32,842 nucleotides of DNA from a virus, in the IMG/VR virus record IMGVR_UViG_3300009068_000105, positions 1-32,842 of that record; one strand, given 5' to 3'. Position numbers and translations under genes: made by a program. Below are positions 5,588-22,513 of the stretch, in pieces. Numbering within the stretch: position 1 is the stretch's first letter; each line of letters begins with the position of its first letter. The notes beneath the pieces are model-generated. The model ran no database searches and was not told the DNA's origin. It saw nothing but the letters and a program-made list of their open reading frames with translations.

Positions 5588-6013
5588 ATGCAAACAATAG
5601 AAGCAAACATCTTAGATTATTATCAAGCACAAAAGAGTAATTTAAAAAAATTAAAAAGCACTCTGGTAGCTTATAATATTCTTGACAAAGATGAGCCAAA
5701 AATAAATGAGAATAAATTGACTGTAAAAAAGTTAATTGGCTTAGTAGAGGATATTTTTGATACAGAGGTATTGCAAAAGAATAGACTGCAAAACACAGTT
5801 TTTGCCAGGAAAGCTGCGGCTTATGTATTAAGGAAGCATACTAATTTATCTTTATCTGAGATTGCTCCTTACATAGGTGTAAAAGACCATACTACAGTTC
5901 ATTATAACGTAGCTACCGCCAAAGACCTAATACAGACTGAGCAATGGTATAAAAATAAAATAAATGAAATTGAGGATGAAATCAAAAAATTTATTACCTT
6001 TGTACAGAATTAA
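5588..6013 (+). CDS. DnaA domain IV-like DNA-binding protein
   Basis: The 141-residue product has a helical N-terminus followed by the DnaA C-terminal DNA-binding pattern: ARKAAAYVLRKHTNLSLSEI (about 73-92), then YIGVKDHTTVHYNVATAKDL. The DHTTVHY signature at 100-106 corresponds to the DHTTV box of DnaA domain IV. There is no AAA+ ATPase domain, so it is not an initiator by itself. It may mark a phage origin or interfere with host DnaA. It ends in a C-terminal coiled coil. A promoter for the next gene lies inside its 3' end. Confidence 0.8.
   Translation: MQTIEANILDYYQAQKSNLKKLKSTLVAYNILDKDEPKINENKLTVKKLIGLVEDIFDTEVLQKNRLQNTVFARKAAAYVLRKHTNLSLSEIAPYIGVKDHTTVHYNVATAKDLIQTEQWYKNKINEIEDEIKKFITFVQN
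5970..6002 (+). promoter_or_regulatory. Promoter upstream of the methyltransferase leader
   Basis: TTG at 5970-5972, 22 bp, then TACCTTTG at 5995-6002, within the TTG-N17-23-TAnnTTTG range known for flavobacteria. A start near 6009 would make a leader of about 98 bases containing the whole structured element at 6025-6103. The 10-mer TACCTTTGTA is identical to that at 14339. Confidence 0.55.
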
Positions 6014-6024
6014 ATAATAACTAT

Positions 6025-6103
6025 GTCGCATATAGTTTAACAACAATACTAGGGGGAGGATGAACTGCTAATGCGACTAGCAGGAATTCCAAACCCTATT
6101 TTT
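6025..6103 (+). ncRNA. Candidate structured leader RNA (pseudoknot) before the methyltransferase
   Basis: Hairpin CTGCTA (6065-6070) / TAGCAG (6078-6083) has the 7-base loop ATGCGAC (6071-6077). That loop is the exact reverse complement of GTCGCAT at 6025-6031, so loop and upstream strand can form a pseudoknot. TAGGG (6050-6054) can pair with CCCTA (6094-6098), enclosing the hairpin and followed by TATTTTTATT directly before ATG 6107. An alternative longer pairing of 6025-6035 with 6068-6077 (one bulge) would disrupt the hairpin. The element could control termination or translation. It did not match a known riboswitch by eye. Confidence 0.5.
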
Positions 6104-6106
6104 ATT

Positions 6107-6991
6107 ATGAAAATAAATACAATATATAATGAATCTTGTCTAGATACATTAAAAAAAATGCCAAATGATTTTTTGGATTGTGTAATAACCTCACCTCCAT
6201 ATTGGCAACTAAGGGATTATGGGTATAATGGCCAATGGGGATTAGAACCAACATTCAATGAATATCTTGAACACCTGTGGGAAATGATGGATGAGATTTA
6301 TAGAGTTTTAAAGCCAACAGGAACTTGTTGGATTAATTTAGGAGATACATATAATACAATATCAGGAGGTATTAGAGGATTAGAAAGAGCAAAAGAAAAT
6401 AATAATGTCCGTTCTATTTCAAAAAAAAATATAATAGGACAAGGATTTCAACAACAAAAATCTAAAGAAATTGCTGAAAAGTGTTTATTATTATTACCAC
6501 ATAGATTTGCTATTGGATGTATTGATAGAGGTTGGATTATGAGAAATGATATTATATGGGCAAAAAGAAATGGTATGCCTGAACCTGTTACAGATAGATT
6601 TACTAAAAAACACGAGTACATTTTTTTAATGACAAAGTCTAAAAAATATTACTTTGATTTAGATATAATAAAAGATAGACTTGTAAATGATAATGATTTT
6701 GAATTAAAAGGTAAAAATCCCGGAACTGTATCAGATTTTTGGGATGTTAATACTAGACCTTCCTCTTTAAAACATTTTGCATCTTATAATGTTGATTTAA
6801 TAACTAAACCTATTTTAGCAGGATGTCCTGAAGGTGGATTAATATATGACCCTTTCATGGGTAGTGGTACAACAGCTATACATTCTATAATGAATAATAG
6901 AAATTTTATTGGTAGTGAAATGAGTAAAGAATATTTAGATATTGCCAATAAAAGAATTTCAGATATATCTTTACAACAAAAATTATTTTAA
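6107..6991 (+). CDS. Site-specific DNA methyltransferase (cytosine-N4 type)
   Basis: The 294-residue product has catalytic motif IV TSPPYW (about 28-33) and SAM-binding motif I DPFMGSGTTA (from about 248). Motif IV before motif I is the beta-class order, and SPPYW favours cytosine-N4 over adenine-N6 methylation. No restriction endonuclease is adjacent, so it is an orphan enzyme likely protecting phage DNA from host restriction. ATG 6107 is chosen over the in-frame ATG 6071 because 6071 lies in the loop of the structured leader and homologous enzymes begin close to the MKINTIYNESCLDTL segment. Confidence 0.85.
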   Translation: MKINTIYNESCLDTLKKMPNDFLDCVITSPPYWQLRDYGYNGQWGLEPTFNEYLEHLWEMMDEIYRVLKPTGTCWINLGDTYNTISGGIRGLERAKENNNVRSISKKNIIGQGFQQQKSKEIAEKCLLLLPHRFAIGCIDRGWIMRNDIIWAKRNGMPEPVTDRFTKKHEYIFLMTKSKKYYFDLDIIKDRLVNDNDFELKGKNPGTVSDFWDVNTRPSSLKHFASYNVDLITKPILAGCPEGGLIYDPFMGSGTTAIHSIMNNRNFIGSEMSKEYLDIANKRISDISLQQKLF

Positions 6992-7001
6992 AAAATATAT
7001 T

Positions 7002-7688
7002 ATGAAAAACAAATCTTATTATTTTAGCCACGATTATAACGCAGCTAACGATACAAAGGTGCTTTTTTTAAGGCATCAATTAGGGATGGAAGGTTATGGT
7101 ATCTATTGGTTTTTAATTGAAAAATTAGCCGATGCAGGAGGTAAAATGCCATTAGATTTAATACCTATATTGGCTATGCAAATGCAATCAAGTGATACAA
7201 AAGTTAAAGGAGTTATAACTCAGTTTGATTTATTTAGTATTAATGAGGGTGAATTTTGGTCAGATAGACTAAATGACCATCTTGGATTAAGGGAAAAACT
7301 AAGCCAAAGTGGTAAAAATGGTGCTATAAGTAGATGGAAAAATGGGGAGGCTAATGGGGTGGCCATTGGGAAGGGTAATGCAAATAAAAGAAAAGAAAAA
7401 GAAATAAAAGAAAATGAAAGTAAATTAAATACTAAAGAATTATTTATAAATATGATAGAAGAATATAAAGAACAATTAACAGATTCTTACAATGATTTTT
7501 TAGAATATTGGACTGAACCTAATAAAAATGGTAAATTGCGATATGAATTAGAAAAGTTCTTTGATTCAAAAAGAAGAATAAATACTTGGTTAAAAAATAA
7601 AAAAACTTATGGAAATTCAAAAACATTTAGCCCAACCGCTGCAAGTACTTCAAGAATGGAAAACCTTGCCGAGTGGGTCAATAGCTGA
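7002..7688 (+). CDS. Replication-initiation-like protein (Lin1244/Lin1753 N-terminal domain)
   Basis: From ATG 7002 the product is 228 residues. The N-terminus KSYYFSHDYNAANDTKVLFL, then GMEGYGIYWFLIEKLA, matches the DUF4373 / Lin1244-Lin1753 domain common in phage replication proteins, which resembles DnaD-like winged helices. A low-complexity Lys/Glu linker follows (about 125-145), then a helical domain ending with a basic WLKNKKTYGNSK segment. It probably acts in origin opening or helicase loading. The upstream in-frame codons to 6942 overlap the methyltransferase and are not used here. Confidence 0.75.
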   Translation: MKNKSYYFSHDYNAANDTKVLFLRHQLGMEGYGIYWFLIEKLADAGGKMPLDLIPILAMQMQSSDTKVKGVITQFDLFSINEGEFWSDRLNDHLGLREKLSQSGKNGAISRWKNGEANGVAIGKGNANKRKEKEIKENESKLNTKELFINMIEEYKEQLTDSYNDFLEYWTEPNKNGKLRYELEKFFDSKRRINTWLKNKKTYGNSKTFSPTAASTSRMENLAEWVNS

Positions 7689-12772: not shown

Positions 12773-12881
12773 AAACGATGTAACCAAAGTTTCATTTGGA
12801 AAAAGAAAAAACGGAAAAGCAAAAAAATCCTACAATAAAAATGACAGAAAAGAACGCAACTACAGAGGTCAAGGTCGTTAA
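12759..12881 (+). CDS. Small highly basic protein (40 aa)
   Basis: A 40-residue frame, MAKGKNDVTKVSFGKRKNGK, continuing through KSYNKNDRKERNYRGQGR. The KSYNKxDRKxRNYRGQGR ending is a recurrent tail in tiny basic proteins beside phage packaging genes. It is strongly positively charged and suited to nucleic acid binding. It overlaps the HNH gene (14 bases) and the start of the methyltransferase gene (41 bases) in another frame. Confidence 0.6.
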   Translation: MAKGKNDVTKVSFGKRKNGKAKKSYNKNDRKERNYRGQGR

Positions 12882-14349
12882 GATTAATGACATTAAATCT
12901 AACCCTAATAACCCTAGAATTATTAAGGATGATAAGTTTAAGAAGTTAGTAGAAAGTATTAAATCATTCCCAGAGATGGCTAATGTTAGACCTATTGTAG
13001 TTAATAAAGATATAATTGTCTTAGGTGGCAATATGAGATTAAAGGCAATGAAGGAAGCAGGTTGGAAAGAAGCACCTATACAAATAGTAGATTGGAATGA
13101 ACAAAAACAAAAGGAATTTATAGTTAAAGATAATGTAGGATATGGCGAATGGGATTGGGATGACCTAGCTAATAATTGGGATGCACAGGAAATAACTGAT
13201 TGGGGTTTAGATATACCTAACTTTGATGTAAACAATTTAGAAGCGGAAGAAGATGAGTTTTCAGTACCAGACGGAGGTATTGAAACAGATATAGTTTTAG
13301 GGGATTTATTTGAAATAGGTGAACACAGATTGCTATGTGGGGATAGTACAGATAGCGACCAAGTGGCAAAGCTAATGAACGGACAAAAGGCAGATATGGC
13401 ACATAATGACCCACCATACGGAATGAAGAAAGAAAAAGAAGGAGTTTTAAATGATAATTTAAACTATTCAGATTTACTTGATTTTAATAGTGAATGGATT
13501 GATACACAATTTATGTATTTAAAAGATAACGGAAGTTGGTATTGTTGGGGTATTGATGAACCATTAATGGATATTTATAGCGAAATATTAAAGCCATATA
13601 TTGCAGAACAAAAGGCAACATTTAGAAACTTAATTACTTGGGATAAAGGACATGGACAAGGTCAAAATTCAGAGAATACAAGAAGCTATGCAATAGCAGA
13701 CGAAAAATGTTTATTTGTTATGATGGGAGTACAAGGATTTAATAATAATGCAGATAATTATTTTAATGGTTGGGATAGCATTGTTAATTATTTAGATGAA
13801 GAAAAAAATAAAGCAAAGTTTACTATTAAGGATTGCAAAAAACTAGCAGGTCATAGCGAAAAAAGTGGTTGTCATTGGTTTGATAAAAGTCAATGGATGA
13901 TGCCTACTAAAGAAACTTATGATAGCTGGAGAAATAATTGCATTGAAAATAATATAGACGCATTTAAAAAAGAATATGAGGAACTTAAAAAAGAATATGA
14001 GGAACTTAAAAAAGAATATTATTCTACCCGTGCCTTTTTCAATAATATACACGATAATTTTAACAATGTATGGAAATTTGATAGGCATTTAAGACAAGGA
14101 GATGAAGGTGGACACGCAACTCCTAAACCTATACCATTATGCGAACGAGCAATTAAATCAAGTTGCCCTGATGATGGATTAGTTTTAGATGTATTTTTAG
14201 GCAGTGGCTCAACAATGATAGCTTCACATCAACTTAAACGCAAATGCTATGGTATGGAATTAGACCCTAAGTATTGCCAAGTTATTGTGGATAGGATGCG
14301 TAAACTTGACCCAACATTGGAAATCAAGAAGAACGGAATACCTTTGTAA
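12841..14349 (+). CDS. ParB-like nuclease domain fused to DNA methyltransferase
   Basis: The 502-residue product starts with a ParB/sulfiredoxin-like domain (IKSNPNNPRIIKDDKF, then VVNKDIIVLGGNMRLKAMKE). This is followed by a beta-class adenine-N6-type methyltransferase: DPPYG at 190-194 and LDVFLGSGSTM near the C-terminus. Phages often place this fusion next to terminase. It likely methylates phage DNA and may mark it for packaging. A 21-bp repeat encodes a small KKEYEEL coiled insert near residues 375-393. ATG 12841 is chosen over the TTG 15 codons upstream, whose extra residues would be low-complexity lysine. Confidence 0.85.
   Translation: MTEKNATTEVKVVKINDIKSNPNNPRIIKDDKFKKLVESIKSFPEMANVRPIVVNKDIIVLGGNMRLKAMKEAGWKEAPIQIVDWNEQKQKEFIVKDNVGYGEWDWDDLANNWDAQEITDWGLDIPNFDVNNLEAEEDEFSVPDGGIETDIVLGDLFEIGEHRLLCGDSTDSDQVAKLMNGQKADMAHNDPPYGMKKEKEGVLNDNLNYSDLLDFNSEWIDTQFMYLKDNGSWYCWGIDEPLMDIYSEILKPYIAEQKATFRNLITWDKGHGQGQNSENTRSYAIADEKCLFVMMGVQGFNNNADNYFNGWDSIVNYLDEEKNKAKFTIKDCKKLAGHSEKSGCHWFDKSQWMMPTKETYDSWRNNCIENNIDAFKKEYEELKKEYEELKKEYYSTRAFFNNIHDNFNNVWKFDRHLRQGDEGGHATPKPIPLCERAIKSSCPDDGLVLDVFLGSGSTMIASHQLKRKCYGMELDPKYCQVIVDRMRKLDPTLEIKKNGIPL
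13964..14019 (+). repeat. 21-bp tandem repeat inside the ParB-methyltransferase gene
   Basis: Two perfect 21-bp copies and a 14-bp partial copy (13964-13984, 13985-14005, 14006-14019) encode LKKEYEE repeats. The unit length keeps frame, so copy-number change would lengthen or shorten a coiled insert without breaking the enzyme. Confidence 0.8.
14317..14346 (+). promoter_or_regulatory. Promoter of the terminase genes
   Basis: TTG at 14317-14319, 19 bp, then TACCTTTG at 14339-14346, matching TTG-N17-23-TAnnTTTG. It overlaps the end of the methyltransferase gene and would start transcription near 14353, about 20 bases before ATG 14374. Confidence 0.55.
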
Positions 14350-17815: not shown

Positions 17816-19019
17816 CCCTGCTCCTTATAGCAGTATGCACGATGATTTATGGTATGTATCAAGTTCAAACAATGTAGGTCAAACTTCGTTTAAATTTGTT
17901 TATGATGTTTATGTAAACGGAAGCCAGGTAAGTAGAACTAAGATATTCCCTGCTCCATCTGCCGAAGGTAGCTATGGGGTATTTAACCCATCACCAATAG
18001 TAAGGGCTTATGTATCTAATTACTTTGAGCCTTCTGGTAGTTATATTCTAGTTGCATCAAACGATAAAATTAAAGTAGCATCAACAATACAAATAGGCGA
18101 GGAATATGTAAGCGGTGGAAACATAATTACTAACTTAAACTTAGTTAGTAGTGCGTTAAGTGCTTATAACTATTATCAGCCATTGTTTGCAGACATTCTA
18201 TTTGTTAATAACAATACTCCTTTAGTATTATCTGATTATTATGATAATTTAATTATAACAAACTTTACAGATGATTGGCTAACAGAAAGAGATACTGATA
18301 ATATTACAATAGAGTATGGAGATAATTTCTTTGCTACATTCTTTAAAGTTACTGCCGGTACTTACTCGGCTTTTGTAGATGTAGTAAACGAATCAGGTGC
18401 GGTTCTAAGTACTGTAAGTGGTAATATTACACTAGCAGGTGAGATGAACTTATTTAATTGTCAAGCAGCGCATATAAATACCTTTGCAGGTTCAACATTA
18501 ATTACAGAGAATACTTATGGTTATAATGTATATTTAAAAAGAGGGGTAGCAACATCTAGGAAGTTAAAATTTGTTCAAAAGTGTTACCCTAAATACAAGC
18601 AGTACAATCTGCACTTTCTTAATAGGCTAGGCGGTTGGGATACTATGAAATTTGCATTAGTTAACAAAAGGTCAACAGAAGTTAAGAGAGCATCTTATAG
18701 AAGAAACGAATACCAACTATCTGGAAACCAAATGACTAACATAGATGTTTACAATAAATACAATGAATCAACATTGAACTATGCTATTCAGCATAAAGAT
18801 ATGTTTCATTTAATATCAGATTGGGTAAGTGAGCAAGACTATGAGTGGTTAGCACAATTATTTGCTAGTTCTATTACTTATATGGAGGTGCAAGGCGCAT
18901 ACTTCCCTGTAACTATTTCTAGCACAAATTACCAATACAAGACAGAAACCGCAGATAAGCTATTTAACTTTGAGATAGATATTGAGGTAGGTAAATATTT
19001 AACAAGCCAATTTAGATAA
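17793..19019 (+). CDS. Putative tail/baseplate structural protein
   Basis: The 408-residue product is beta-rich (AITIQSSPAPYSSMHDDLWY, FKFVYDVYVNG, repeated Val/Thr/Ile strands) and ends with FNFEIDIEVGKYL. It has no signal peptide. Its place between the tail chaperones and the large tail protein, with a one-base overlap at both sides of the following start, suggests a distal tail or baseplate component. Family not identified. Confidence 0.55.
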   Translation: MAITIQSSPAPYSSMHDDLWYVSSSNNVGQTSFKFVYDVYVNGSQVSRTKIFPAPSAEGSYGVFNPSPIVRAYVSNYFEPSGSYILVASNDKIKVASTIQIGEEYVSGGNIITNLNLVSSALSAYNYYQPLFADILFVNNNTPLVLSDYYDNLIITNFTDDWLTERDTDNITIEYGDNFFATFFKVTAGTYSAFVDVVNESGAVLSTVSGNITLAGEMNLFNCQAAHINTFAGSTLITENTYGYNVYLKRGVATSRKLKFVQKCYPKYKQYNLHFLNRLGGWDTMKFALVNKRSTEVKRASYRRNEYQLSGNQMTNIDVYNKYNESTLNYAIQHKDMFHLISDWVSEQDYEWLAQLFASSITYMEVQGAYFPVTISSTNYQYKTETADKLFNFEIDIEVGKYLTSQFR

Positions 19020-22000
19020 TGATTAGCACAGAGATATACATTGAAGATTATAAGTTAGATTTATTACAAGATATAAGCACAGAGTTTAGCTATAGCATTG
19101 ATGATATAGTAGACTTTGGCTCTAGAAATACTTCTTTTTCTAAGACAATTAATATCTCTGGTACTGCTATTAATAACAAAATATTTGGCTTTGTTTTTGA
19201 CTTAGGTAATGCTAACTTCACAGATGATACTCTACCAAATGTAAACTATAACTTTAATGCAAGTAAGTCTGCACAATGCAGAATATTCATTGATAAGATA
19301 CAAGTCTTTAAGGGTACATTAAGAATATTAGAGATAGTAATAGATGGCAAGACAATAGAATACCAATGTAGTGTGTTTGGTGAACTAGGTGGATTTATTT
19401 CTTCATTAGGCAATAATAGACTAGAGGACTTAGACTTTAGCTTTTATAACCACACATATACTCACGAGAATATAACTGCTTCTTGGGAGGTATCTGGTGC
19501 AAGAGGAACTTCTAATAGCACAACTTATGGCTCTGGATATTACTACCCATTGATTGATTATGGTAATGTAAGTACTGATAAATTAGATTACAATGTAATG
19601 ACATTTAGACCTGCTTTATTTGCCAAGCAATACATAGAAAAGATATTTGCAGGTAGTGGTTATACTTATGACTTTCCTTTGTTAGATACAGATGCTTTTA
19701 AAAGATTGATAATACCACACAATCAAAAGATACTTTCTACAATAAGCAATATTCAATTAACAGCTACTCCTAATGTTACGACTTACACAGGCTCTGGTAT
19801 TACAATACCTTTAGGATTTACAAATACAACTTTAGGTAGTTTTACTTATGCAGGAACAACATACATTTATACAGGTGCATCTAAGGTAATTAACTTAGAT
19901 TTTAAATTAGTAGGACTTTATACTGCAGGCGGAATAGCTACTCTTAACGTTAAAAAAGCAGGTGTAACAATCGGAAGCTATTACATAGGCGCGCCATTCC
20001 CAGGTCACTATTTTACTGCTAATATTAATTTAGTAGGAATAACATTTAACACAAGTGATAGCTTAACATTCTCTTTAGATTGGACTAGCGCTTCAACAGG
20101 GTATAATTTAGTTGTTCAATCAGGAGGCTCTTTAAGTTTAACTACAACAAGTAGTGATGTAGTTCCTGTTAACTATAATGAAGCAATAAAAATAAATAGT
20201 ACAATACCTAAAGGGATATTTCAAAGAGATTTCTTTTTAAGTATTTGTAAGATGTTTAACTTATATGTTTATGATGACATATACACAGACAAAAAGATTT
20301 ATATAAAACCTTATATAGATTTTTATTCTACCGGTAGTTCTACTTCTTTAGATTGGTCTAATAAAATAGACAGGTCTAAGCCATTGAGCATTAAACCAAT
20401 GAGTGAACTAAACGCAAGATACTATCAATTCAAATATAAAGATGATACGGATAATTACAATGAGAATTATAAAAAGAAATATAATGAGAACTATGCTGAT
20501 AGGCTATACGATACTGCATATGATTTTAGTAAAGATACAGAAACACTTGAGGTAATATTTGCATCAAGCCCTTTAGTACAAGCAACAGGAAGAGATAAAA
20601 GAATTACTCAAATATTAAAAATATCTGATAACAATACTAAAGAGCAATCTGTAGATAGTGTTATTAGAATAATGCAAGTACAAAAGATTACAGGTGTAGC
20701 TAGTTGGAATATAAAAAACCAAGCAGGCTCATCAAACTTAGTAACAGGAACGGCCTACGGATACGCAGGCCATTTGCATTTTAACGATGCCGGTGTACCT
20801 GACAATGATTTAAACTTTGGTGCGCCTAAAGAGGTTTACATTACTGCTACTTCATACCCTACTACAAATCTATTCAACGCATACTATAGTGACTATATAG
20901 CCGAGATAACAAGCAAGGATAGTAAACTATTAACTTGTAATGCTTTATTGAATACAATAGATATTAATACTTTAGATTTTTCAAAACACATATGGATAGA
21001 TGGTGTTTTGTTTAAGTTAAATAATATTATGGGTTATAACCCAATGGAGTACAATACTACTAAGGTTAGTTTGTTAAAAGTAATTGAAACAAATGAGCCA
21101 CCGGTAACTACAACAACAACAAGTACTACAACAACAACAAGTACTACAACAACAACAACTACTGCAGCAACAAGTACAACAACAAGTACAACTACTGCAG
21201 GTACAAGTACAACTACTAGCACAACAACAGGTGGAGGCACAACAACGACAACAACAACTATTGCGCCTACAACTACTACTACAAGTACAACAACGACAAC
21301 AACAACTTTGCCACCGGTAACTTATGACTTTAGTGCAACTTGTACAGGCATAACACAAACTATTACAATCAGTAATTTTGCAGGTGGTGATGGTACAAAC
21401 TATTATGCCAATGTCGTAACTTATGATGATGCAGGTTCAGCAGCAGCAGGTGCAACTACATTAGTAACAGGTGGAGTTAGAACATATACAGGACAACCAA
21501 ATGGTACAAGATATGTTTATGTTTCATCTGGTTCACGTTCATTAGTTAAAAATGGTGGAAATACTTGTACAACAACAACAAGTACAACTACTACTACCAC
21601 TACTATTCAACAAGTATGGTATCAATTAGCAAATTGTAACGGAGGTGGAACAGTATATTCAACAAATTATGATATTGGATATGCAGCACCTAATGATAGA
21701 GTTTTTGGAACTGTATCTGGTGTACCATCAACATTAACAGTTACAAGTGTATTGTTTAGCAATCCAGGTGGAATACAAATAGGAATAGTTAATTCAGGAC
21801 AAACAGGTTGCCCTGCTACAACTACTACGACTACAACTACTACTACACAAGCGCCTGTTAATGCTAATATTAGTTCTGTATGTACAGGAGTTACACAAAC
21901 TATAACAGTAGATAGCTTTAGCGGTGGGGATGGCTCTACATATTATGCAAGTAATACAACTTATGGAGACCCTGCAAGTGCAGCAGCAGGAGCAGTTAGC

Positions 22001-22513
22001 TTAGTATCTGGTGGTACAAGAAGTTACGCAAGTCAACCTAACGGAACAAGATATGTAAAAATAACTTCTACAATTAGAGAGAGTGTTTTATCAGGCGGAC
22101 AAACTTGTACGACAACAACTACAAGTACAACAACAACAACTACAACTCTTGCGGTATGGCCTGCTAATTTAAGAATGAGTAAATTGTCAAATACAACAGG
22201 TAGCGTAACTCTTTATGAATCAAGTGACGGAGTTACTTTTGGTTCAATAGCATCAAGAACAACAAATGGTGTTACTGCTGTAAACTTACAAAAAGGTTAC
22301 TACTATTACATCACAACAATAAGGTCTACTTGTACAGGAAGCTGCTCAACTGTTGCTCCACAATCTACTTGGTCTTATGATGGTGTAACTTATGGGCCGA
22401 ATGTAGGAGGTGCATTTAATGGTTCTTCTGTTGATAGTGATGTTTTCCAAACAGCTACATCAGGTGCAGACCCTAACTACGACTTTATAGGATATATAAA
22501 TAATCTAGTATAA
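19019..22513 (+). CDS. Large tail protein with threonine-rich tracts and duplicated domains
   Basis: The 1164-residue product has a tail/baseplate-like N-terminal half (IYIEDYKLDLLQDISTEFSY, then SRNTSFSKTINISG). From about residue 695 it has four threonine-rich tracts separating small domains. The first and third domains are homologous (TCTGITQTITISNFAGGDGT compared with VCTGVTQTITVDSFSGGDGS, both with QPNGTRYV). Each ends in an NGGNTC/SGGQTC-type cysteine. The Thr tracts are made of ACA/ACT codons and look like flexible, exposed linkers suited to receptor display or glycosylation. A glycosyltransferase gene follows after 9 bases. Confidence 0.7.
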   Translation: MISTEIYIEDYKLDLLQDISTEFSYSIDDIVDFGSRNTSFSKTINISGTAINNKIFGFVFDLGNANFTDDTLPNVNYNFNASKSAQCRIFIDKIQVFKGTLRILEIVIDGKTIEYQCSVFGELGGFISSLGNNRLEDLDFSFYNHTYTHENITASWEVSGARGTSNSTTYGSGYYYPLIDYGNVSTDKLDYNVMTFRPALFAKQYIEKIFAGSGYTYDFPLLDTDAFKRLIIPHNQKILSTISNIQLTATPNVTTYTGSGITIPLGFTNTTLGSFTYAGTTYIYTGASKVINLDFKLVGLYTAGGIATLNVKKAGVTIGSYYIGAPFPGHYFTANINLVGITFNTSDSLTFSLDWTSASTGYNLVVQSGGSLSLTTTSSDVVPVNYNEAIKINSTIPKGIFQRDFFLSICKMFNLYVYDDIYTDKKIYIKPYIDFYSTGSSTSLDWSNKIDRSKPLSIKPMSELNARYYQFKYKDDTDNYNENYKKKYNENYADRLYDTAYDFSKDTETLEVIFASSPLVQATGRDKRITQILKISDNNTKEQSVDSVIRIMQVQKITGVASWNIKNQAGSSNLVTGTAYGYAGHLHFNDAGVPDNDLNFGAPKEVYITATSYPTTNLFNAYYSDYIAEITSKDSKLLTCNALLNTIDINTLDFSKHIWIDGVLFKLNNIMGYNPMEYNTTKVSLLKVIETNEPPVTTTTTSTTTTTSTTTTTTTAATSTTTSTTTAGTSTTTSTTTGGGTTTTTTTIAPTTTTTSTTTTTTTLPPVTYDFSATCTGITQTITISNFAGGDGTNYYANVVTYDDAGSAAAGATTLVTGGVRTYTGQPNGTRYVYVSSGSRSLVKNGGNTCTTTTSTTTTTTTIQQVWYQLANCNGGGTVYSTNYDIGYAAPNDRVFGTVSGVPSTLTVTSVLFSNPGGIQIGIVNSGQTGCPATTTTTTTTTTQAPVNANISSVCTGVTQTITVDSFSGGDGSTYYASNTTYGDPASAAAGAVSLVSGGTRSYASQPNGTRYVKITSTIRESVLSGGQTCTTTTTSTTTTTTTLAVWPANLRMSKLSNTTGSVTLYESSDGVTFGSIASRTTNGVTAVNLQKGYYYYITTIRSTCTGSCSTVAPQSTWSYDGVTYGPNVGGAFNGSSVDSDVFQTATSGADPNYDFIGYINNLV
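21098..21322 (+). repeat. Thr-tract cassette flanked by 12-bp direct repeats
   Basis: CCACCGGTAACT occurs at 21098-21109 and 21311-21322, encoding PPVT on each side of a long ACA/ACT (Thr) tract. The spacing of 213 bp is 71 codons, so recombination between the repeats would delete the tract in frame. Shorter Thr tracts follow at about 21569-21605, 21818-21849 and 22109-22147. Confidence 0.75.

Follow-up and report, generated by a model that had tools for sequence, protein, structure and literature searches.

We found that the plus strand of a virus record (about 6005-6106) probably specifies a structured leader RNA about 95 nt long, in which the loops of two small hairpins are fully complementary to each other. 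The RNA is apparently an undescribed class of structured RNA that many Bacteroidota-type phages carry at their replication module, and its predicted architecture is kept with almost no fixed sequence. The best explanation is that it would act in cis, as an attenuator stabilised by the loop-loop kissing interaction and gating the replication genes, and we give this reading a probability of about one half. The window (the whole stretch of DNA that was analysed), a 32,842-base virus record, contains a terminase gene, a gene for an Erf-like annealing protein, and virion genes. The features around the RNA are listed in Table 1.

Table 1. Positions of the RNA elements and neighbouring genes in the window
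Feature	Position	Strand	Remarks
Upstream gene with DnaA C-terminal helix-turn-helix (PF08299)	5588-6013	+	3' end contains the promoter
Bacteroidota-type promoter: TTG (5970-5972), 22 nt, TACCTTTG (5995-6002)	5970-6002	+	Overlaps the 3' end of the upstream ORF
Hairpin 1: AACTAT (6019-6024)/ATAGTT (6032-6037), 6 bp; 7-nt loop GTCGCAT (6025-6031)	6019-6037	+	
Linker, single-stranded, A/U-rich	6038-6049	+	Mostly 11-18 nt in relatives, consensus near UAANAACUUWUU
Outer stem P1: TAGGG (6050-6054)/CCCTA (6094-6098)	6050-6098	+	Surrounds hairpin 2, without hairpin 1
Internal loop strands inside P1, purine-rich	6055-6064 and 6084-6093	+	
Hairpin 2: CTGCTA/TAGCAG, 6 bp; 7-nt loop ATGCGAC (6071-6077)	6065-6083	+	
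Kissing helix: loop 6025-6031 with loop 6071-6077, 7 Watson-Crick pairs	6025-6077	+	
U-tract after P1, terminator-like (U-run 6099-6103)	6099-6106	+	Start codon ATG 6107 directly after
N6/N4 DNA methyltransferase (PF01555)	6107-6991	+	Separates the RNA from the replication-initiation gene; not a conserved partner of the RNA
Replication-initiation gene (Lin1244_N PF14297; PHROG 2562 replication initiation protein)	7002-7688	+	

Structure of the leader RNA

A sequence-only reading of this DNA had proposed a pseudoknot leader RNA after a promoter, and covariation in relatives strongly supports it. Its promoter-like TTG-N22-TACCTTTG is present, as are the TAGGG/CCCTA stem that encloses the hairpin at 6065-6083 and the U-run ahead of the methyltransferase start codon. 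GTCGCAT is, as it had claimed, the exact reverse complement of the whole loop of this hairpin. However, it had overlooked another hairpin, of 6 bp, whose 7-nt loop is GTCGCAT. The interaction is therefore a loop-loop kissing, and the unit is a kissing pseudoknot set between a promoter and a terminator-like end.

The relatives have TAnnTTTG in the same promoter position, usually 1-18 nt 5' of hairpin 1, and their linkers are A-rich first and then U-rich. A U-tract directly 3' of a hairpin, which is a feature of intrinsic terminators, is present, and this region is U-rich in 87/87 distinct members, with the caveat that the stem is often short and the U-tract is sometimes interrupted. The minimum free energy of the leader was -23.2 kcal/mol, more stable than that of shuffled sequences (z = -3.03).

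The sequence-only reading had also suggested a two-state switch, based on a longer, mutually exclusive pairing of 6025-6035 with 6068-6077. This pairing is not conserved, and no conserved antiterminator pairing was found in the relatives: the complementarity normally ends at the loop borders. The hairpins are closed by U-A (hairpin 1) and A-U (hairpin 2), in 22/25 members each, and an extension of the loop complementarity to 9 nt is seen in L181-like members only.

Two further candidates were rejected. Some members could form a kink-turn in their internal loop (GAU bulge, GAA/GGA), but the window and class A do not fit this motif. Meanwhile, positions 6061-6106 of the window include GGAGG-ATG-AAC-TGC-TAA, and the ATG in loop 2 (6071) is in frame with the methyltransferase, which points to a possible N-terminal extension. 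An upstream ORF or translational coupling was rejected as a general feature, since GGAGG-ATG and the loop ATG give in-frame extensions only in the window, L081, L129, and L160, and the same signals are out of frame or missing in other relatives.

Search for relatives

Using the methyltransferase protein as a query, we obtained 43 viral loci, which were scanned for two 7-nt-loop hairpins with complementary loops. The two-hairpin unit was present, with differing loop words, in L001-L015 and L023. Further loci were fetched with the initiator and DnaB proteins. It should be noted that most loci of the first collections were picked by loop words or protein similarity, and the frequencies in them are not a survey. 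In addition, the first scans required complementary loops, and therefore two loop-blind routes were used.

One route was a covariance model (R1) that includes the two hairpins and P1 without the kissing pairs. R1 matched 80/98 viral loci that had been retrieved through similarity to the initiator or helicase proteins. Among the 18 R1-negative loci, 12 were without the needed upstream DNA, four (L217-L219 and L276) were distant homologues, and two (L214 and L268) apparently have no such RNA. We inspected 54 R1 matches, and exact 7-nt complementary loops were found in 51 of them; the loops of L229 and L256 are 8 nt long and also complementary, and 6 pairs remain in L035.

The other route was a search for the P1 patterns TTATTGCCC-N-GGGCTTTTTT and TTTTTGCCC-N-GGGCTTTTTT. 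At least 133 distinct stretches were found, at least 55 of them with a TAnnTTTG promoter. Among the matches listed, the segment 5' of P1 was complementary to the interior of P1 over at least 6 nt in 53/55 promoter-linked stretches. Complementarity of at least 7 nt, involving many unrelated words, was found in 87% of the promoter-linked stretches listed vs 5.7% of shuffles. Furthermore, a general finder returned 198 matches in 4.2 Mb of fetched loci, corresponding to 87 distinct RNAs with about 28 words, and 0 matches in 4.2 Mb of block-shuffled DNA; these loci are enriched for the RNA, many of them having been fetched as relatives, and the counts are not population frequencies.

Covariation and loop words

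To score the structure, 25 distinct members were aligned with the structure of the window imposed, kissing helix included (alignment A1). We found that 97.0% of the cells were standard pairs and that 21/23 pairs were changed on both sides, which are the compensatory changes that the sequence-only reading had named as support. The covariation score was 0.89, vs 0.205 in shuffles (0/500 reached 0.89) and at most 0.195 for slid partners. In hairpin 1, 6/6 stem pairs covary and 94% of the cells are paired; in hairpin 2, 6/6 pairs were changed on both sides and 100% of the cells are paired. For P1, four pairs were scored and all were changed on both sides, with 92% of the cells paired overall, the offset of class B aside.

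The covariation is very strong in the loop-loop contact itself. All of the 175 cells of the kissing helix are Watson-Crick pairs in the 25 relatives, so that the helix is perfect in every sequence; 5/7 pairs were changed on both sides and two (U-A and A-U) are invariant. Some relatives are only one covarying step apart, for instance GTCGCAT/ATGCGAC and GTCGTAT/ATACGAC, ATTGCAG/CTGCAAT and GTTGCAG/CTGCAAC, or GTCGGAT/ATCCGAC and GTAGGAT/ATCCTAC. L013 and L011 have almost identical bodies and entirely different loop words. Furthermore, the stem cells include 18 G.U vs 3 A.C, as expected of an RNA from the plus strand; thus, the fold belongs to this strand as RNA, and the promoter and the U-tract are on the same strand. 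The comparison of relatives demonstrates the predicted structure and its kissing interaction, and the kissing-loop structure is almost certainly a selected feature.

Distribution in phages and bacteria

The RNA is carried by many viruses of Bacteroidota-type bacteria, and these phages are diverse. It is usually single-copy per genome. In a 62-kb phage record (G424), we found two RNAs, with GTGAGAG/CTCTCAC and GTCGCAT/ATGCGAC, which precede different genes (L298, G424:57500-61996, and L299, G424:1-4000); GTGAGAG/CTCTCAC is a new pair that surfaced in the loop-blind R1 route. L107 may likewise hold two RNAs (581 and 3000).

Two cultured phages have the unit. In Polaribacter phage Danklef_1, it extends from about 3526 of L519, between the NTP-PPase gene and Danklef1_42/43, with the word GGTGGAA. 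In Flavobacterium phage 11b, it begins at about 5468 of L521, before PHG11b_62/63, with the word CGGGCAGG. Both units have larger loops (12-13 nt) and a longer P1. The architecture was found once each in Danklef_1, 11b, and the window, and 0 times in 1.04 Mb of shuffled DNA. With these two members, replication gating becomes directly testable. No match was found in the first 50 kb each of Cellulophaga phages phiST, phi3ST:2, and phi10:1, or in the fetched region of Riemerella phage CRP6, and querying cultured phages with the RNA at the nucleotide level gave chance matches only. In addition, seven loci (L468, L467, L437, L507, L398, L329, and L321) look like distant members, with first loops of 10-14 nt and 8-9-nt complementary words. 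The distant members suggest a class that extends beyond the reach of the covariance model.

Of the about 790 Bacteroidia genomes sampled, R1 found the RNA in one, which is a lower bound because R1 does not reach the distant members. The single case is a Chitinophagaceae MAG (G001) whose contigs may be viral. Thus, the RNA appears to be mostly one of phages that are not prophages in the sampled genomes. The P1 pattern gave 11 scattered matches in 395 Bacteroidia genomes, and nothing was found at L517, the one that was inspected.

Genomic position

Among the loci fetched with the methyltransferase, the RNA is nearly always on the far side of this gene, right before a replication-type gene (L001-L015 and L023). 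L012 resembles the window, and in both the methyltransferase is wedged between the RNA and the replication-type gene. Since the RNA stands before the replication-type gene, we consider it an element of the replication module and the methyltransferase a passenger, inserted in L012 and in the window. The loci fetched with the initiator and DnaB confirm that the RNA belongs to the replication module. Relatives of the window's initiator begin directly 3' of the RNA in L081, L190, and L211-L213. The methyltransferase had been read as the gene served by the leader, and this link did not hold: most relatives carry the RNA 3' of a methyltransferase and 5' of an initiator, or have no adjoining methyltransferase. 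The comparison of loci demonstrates both this position of the predicted RNA and its independence from the methyltransferase, and we have very little doubt that location at replication modules is the rule.

Across diverse phages, the cultured 11b and Danklef_1 among them, the RNA precedes the replication module, in most cases with an initiator or primase gene directly after it. The genes 3' of the RNA differ. In unrelated phages, they encode proteins with HTH_36, DUF1376-like (weak match), or Lin1244_N domains or a 'replication initiation protein', and in L409 and L325 the gene resembles a primase. DnaB and other replication genes are further downstream. The ATG is mostly about 30 nt 3' of loop 2, and RNA types and initiator types combine freely.

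Several other features were observed in these loci. Homing-endonuclease-like genes (HNH or GIY-YIG) are located 3' of the RNA in L413, L427, and L401, and in L413 and L427 such a gene is directly ahead of the replication-initiation gene. In a second, 50%-identical group of methyltransferases (L026-L032), the element just upstream of the methyltransferase relative is a conserved TTGACAATT...TATACTAT promoter with a leader, not the kissing-loop RNA. Elsewhere in the window, there is a second DNA-methyltransferase-like ORF with a ParB-like start (12796-14349), and a large ORF (19019-22513) has repeated similar domains with threonine/serine-rich low-complexity linkers between them.

Possible mechanism and alternative explanations

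The order of promoter, structured RNA, U-tract, and start codon suggests that most transcripts would stop at the end of the leader and some would continue past it. Transcription would start a few nucleotides after TACCTTTG; in the cultured phages 11b and Danklef_1, the predicted short RNA would start after TATATTTG and end in the U-tract. Hairpin 1 would fold first, followed by the A/U-rich linker and then by the terminator-like hairpin, consisting of P1, the internal loop, hairpin 2, and the U-tract. The loop of hairpin 2 would then kiss that of hairpin 1 through 6-9 base pairs. Because P1 alone often has 4-5 bp, the contact between the two hairpins could decide whether the terminator holds. 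The kissing would stabilise an otherwise weak terminator hairpin, and most transcripts would end as a short RNA. Read-through into the replication module (initiator/primase and helicase), the putative gated target, would be set by the kissing complex forming or being disturbed, possibly by a second copy of the RNA, by a protein, or by the state of RNA polymerase. The U-tract is weak in some members (GGGCACTTTTATTTT), and strong termination may therefore not be what matters. The covariation fits kissing within one molecule and between two equally, and by our own estimate the linker is barely long enough for a straight stack of helices. We infer kissing in cis rather than in a dimer, as we do the transcription start, the termination, and the control of read-through.

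Control in trans, similar to that by the CI RNA of satellite phage P4 or to plasmid copy control, is possible and on the unlikely side. The short terminated RNA would pair through its loops with a leader still being transcribed, either from another genome copy or from a superinfecting phage that shares the loop word. This would shut replication-gene expression, and the words would be specificity types. The place is the same, the leader of replication genes, and a short terminated RNA is predicted. The loop words are hypervariable on similar bodies, RNA types shuffle against initiator types, and the two copies of G424 have different words. In addition, P4 CI RNA is a precedent: its pairing with seqA/seqC as an antisense RNA terminates transcription before the replication genes are reached, according to the available text of the source (PMC4825925). 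However, both complementary loops are on one RNA here, and cis pairing should win; there is no separate seqA/seqC-like target, and the window's only other copy of either loop word is inside the terminase gene. The near absence of R1 matches from the sampled bacterial genomes may also argue against prophage immunity. A somewhat more doubtful proposal is that the loop words are a base-pairing specificity code, by which the leader RNA would sense its own copies and co-infecting relatives and gate the replication module. If this is true, phages fall into RNA 'incompatibility types' of 6-9 letters, exchangeable by recombination.

It is unlikely that the unit is a stable small RNA that is merely made at the replication module and acts elsewhere, on a host protein or host RNA or as a kissing homodimer or oligomer. 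It has its own promoter and terminator, its predicted 5' end is near hairpin 1, and intermolecular kissing is known in the phage-encoded ROOL and GOLLD (PMC12286853), but the tight coupling to start codons of unrelated replication gene families across a large diversity of phages, and the lack of a conserved sequence fit for a binding site, are against it. An RNA that opens or primes a replication origin beside the initiator gene would agree with the constant location at the replication module; it seems distinctly improbable, as there are no iterons and no skew change at the locus, where GC skew is uninformative. The sequence-only reading had considered SAM or SAH sensing, and the leader with its terminator-like hairpin does precede a SAM-using enzyme in the window and L012. 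However, a riboswitch for these or other metabolites is very improbable, because the downstream methyltransferase is not conserved, the loops, stems, and P1 all vary, and no conserved ligand core was found across the relatives. Furthermore, no covariance model of Rfam 15 (SAM, SAH, purine, and other riboswitches included) matched the window or 11 relatives at gathering score. An inverted-repeat operator acting as DNA had been named as another alternative. Inverted repeats would covary too, but the excess of G.U over A.C, the strand-specific promoter and U-tract, and the lack of a conserved recognition sequence disfavour it so strongly that we give it almost no weight.

Comparison with known systems

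A literature search, partial in coverage, found no description of the kissing-loop motif. The exchangeable loop words provide a natural set of apparently orthogonal kissing pairs. In ColE1, RNA I and RNA II have fully complementary 7-nt loops whose kissing controls replication, and the two RNAs come from opposite strands. The loops found here are likewise fully complementary and 7 nt long, whereas both are on the plus strand of one unit with one promoter. The purine riboswitch is also a leader in which two 7-nt-loop hairpins touch each other; unlike in that riboswitch, the outer stem of the present RNA surrounds hairpin 2 only, and there is no conserved three-way-junction ligand core.

Among phage RNAs, IsrK of Gifsy-1 shows read-through past the terminator of a small RNA, and it shares with our unit the order of phage promoter, small RNA, intrinsic terminator, and read-through into phage genes (PMC4825925). 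However, the IsrK pathway leads to the antiterminator AntQ, the downstream genes are different, and kissing loops are not described for it in the available text of that source. The closest analogue is P4 CI RNA with seqA, seqB, and seqC. In the available account, processing of the P4 leader yields CI RNA, which pairs with two flanking targets (PMC4825925), whereas here two hairpin loops of one short RNA pair, with a single complementary partner and no flanking seqA/seqC, in phages that do not look like prophages in the sampled genomes. What the two systems have in common is an untranslated leader of a replication operon with internal complementary segments, which in P4, as far as that account goes, exerts control by premature termination (PMC4825925).
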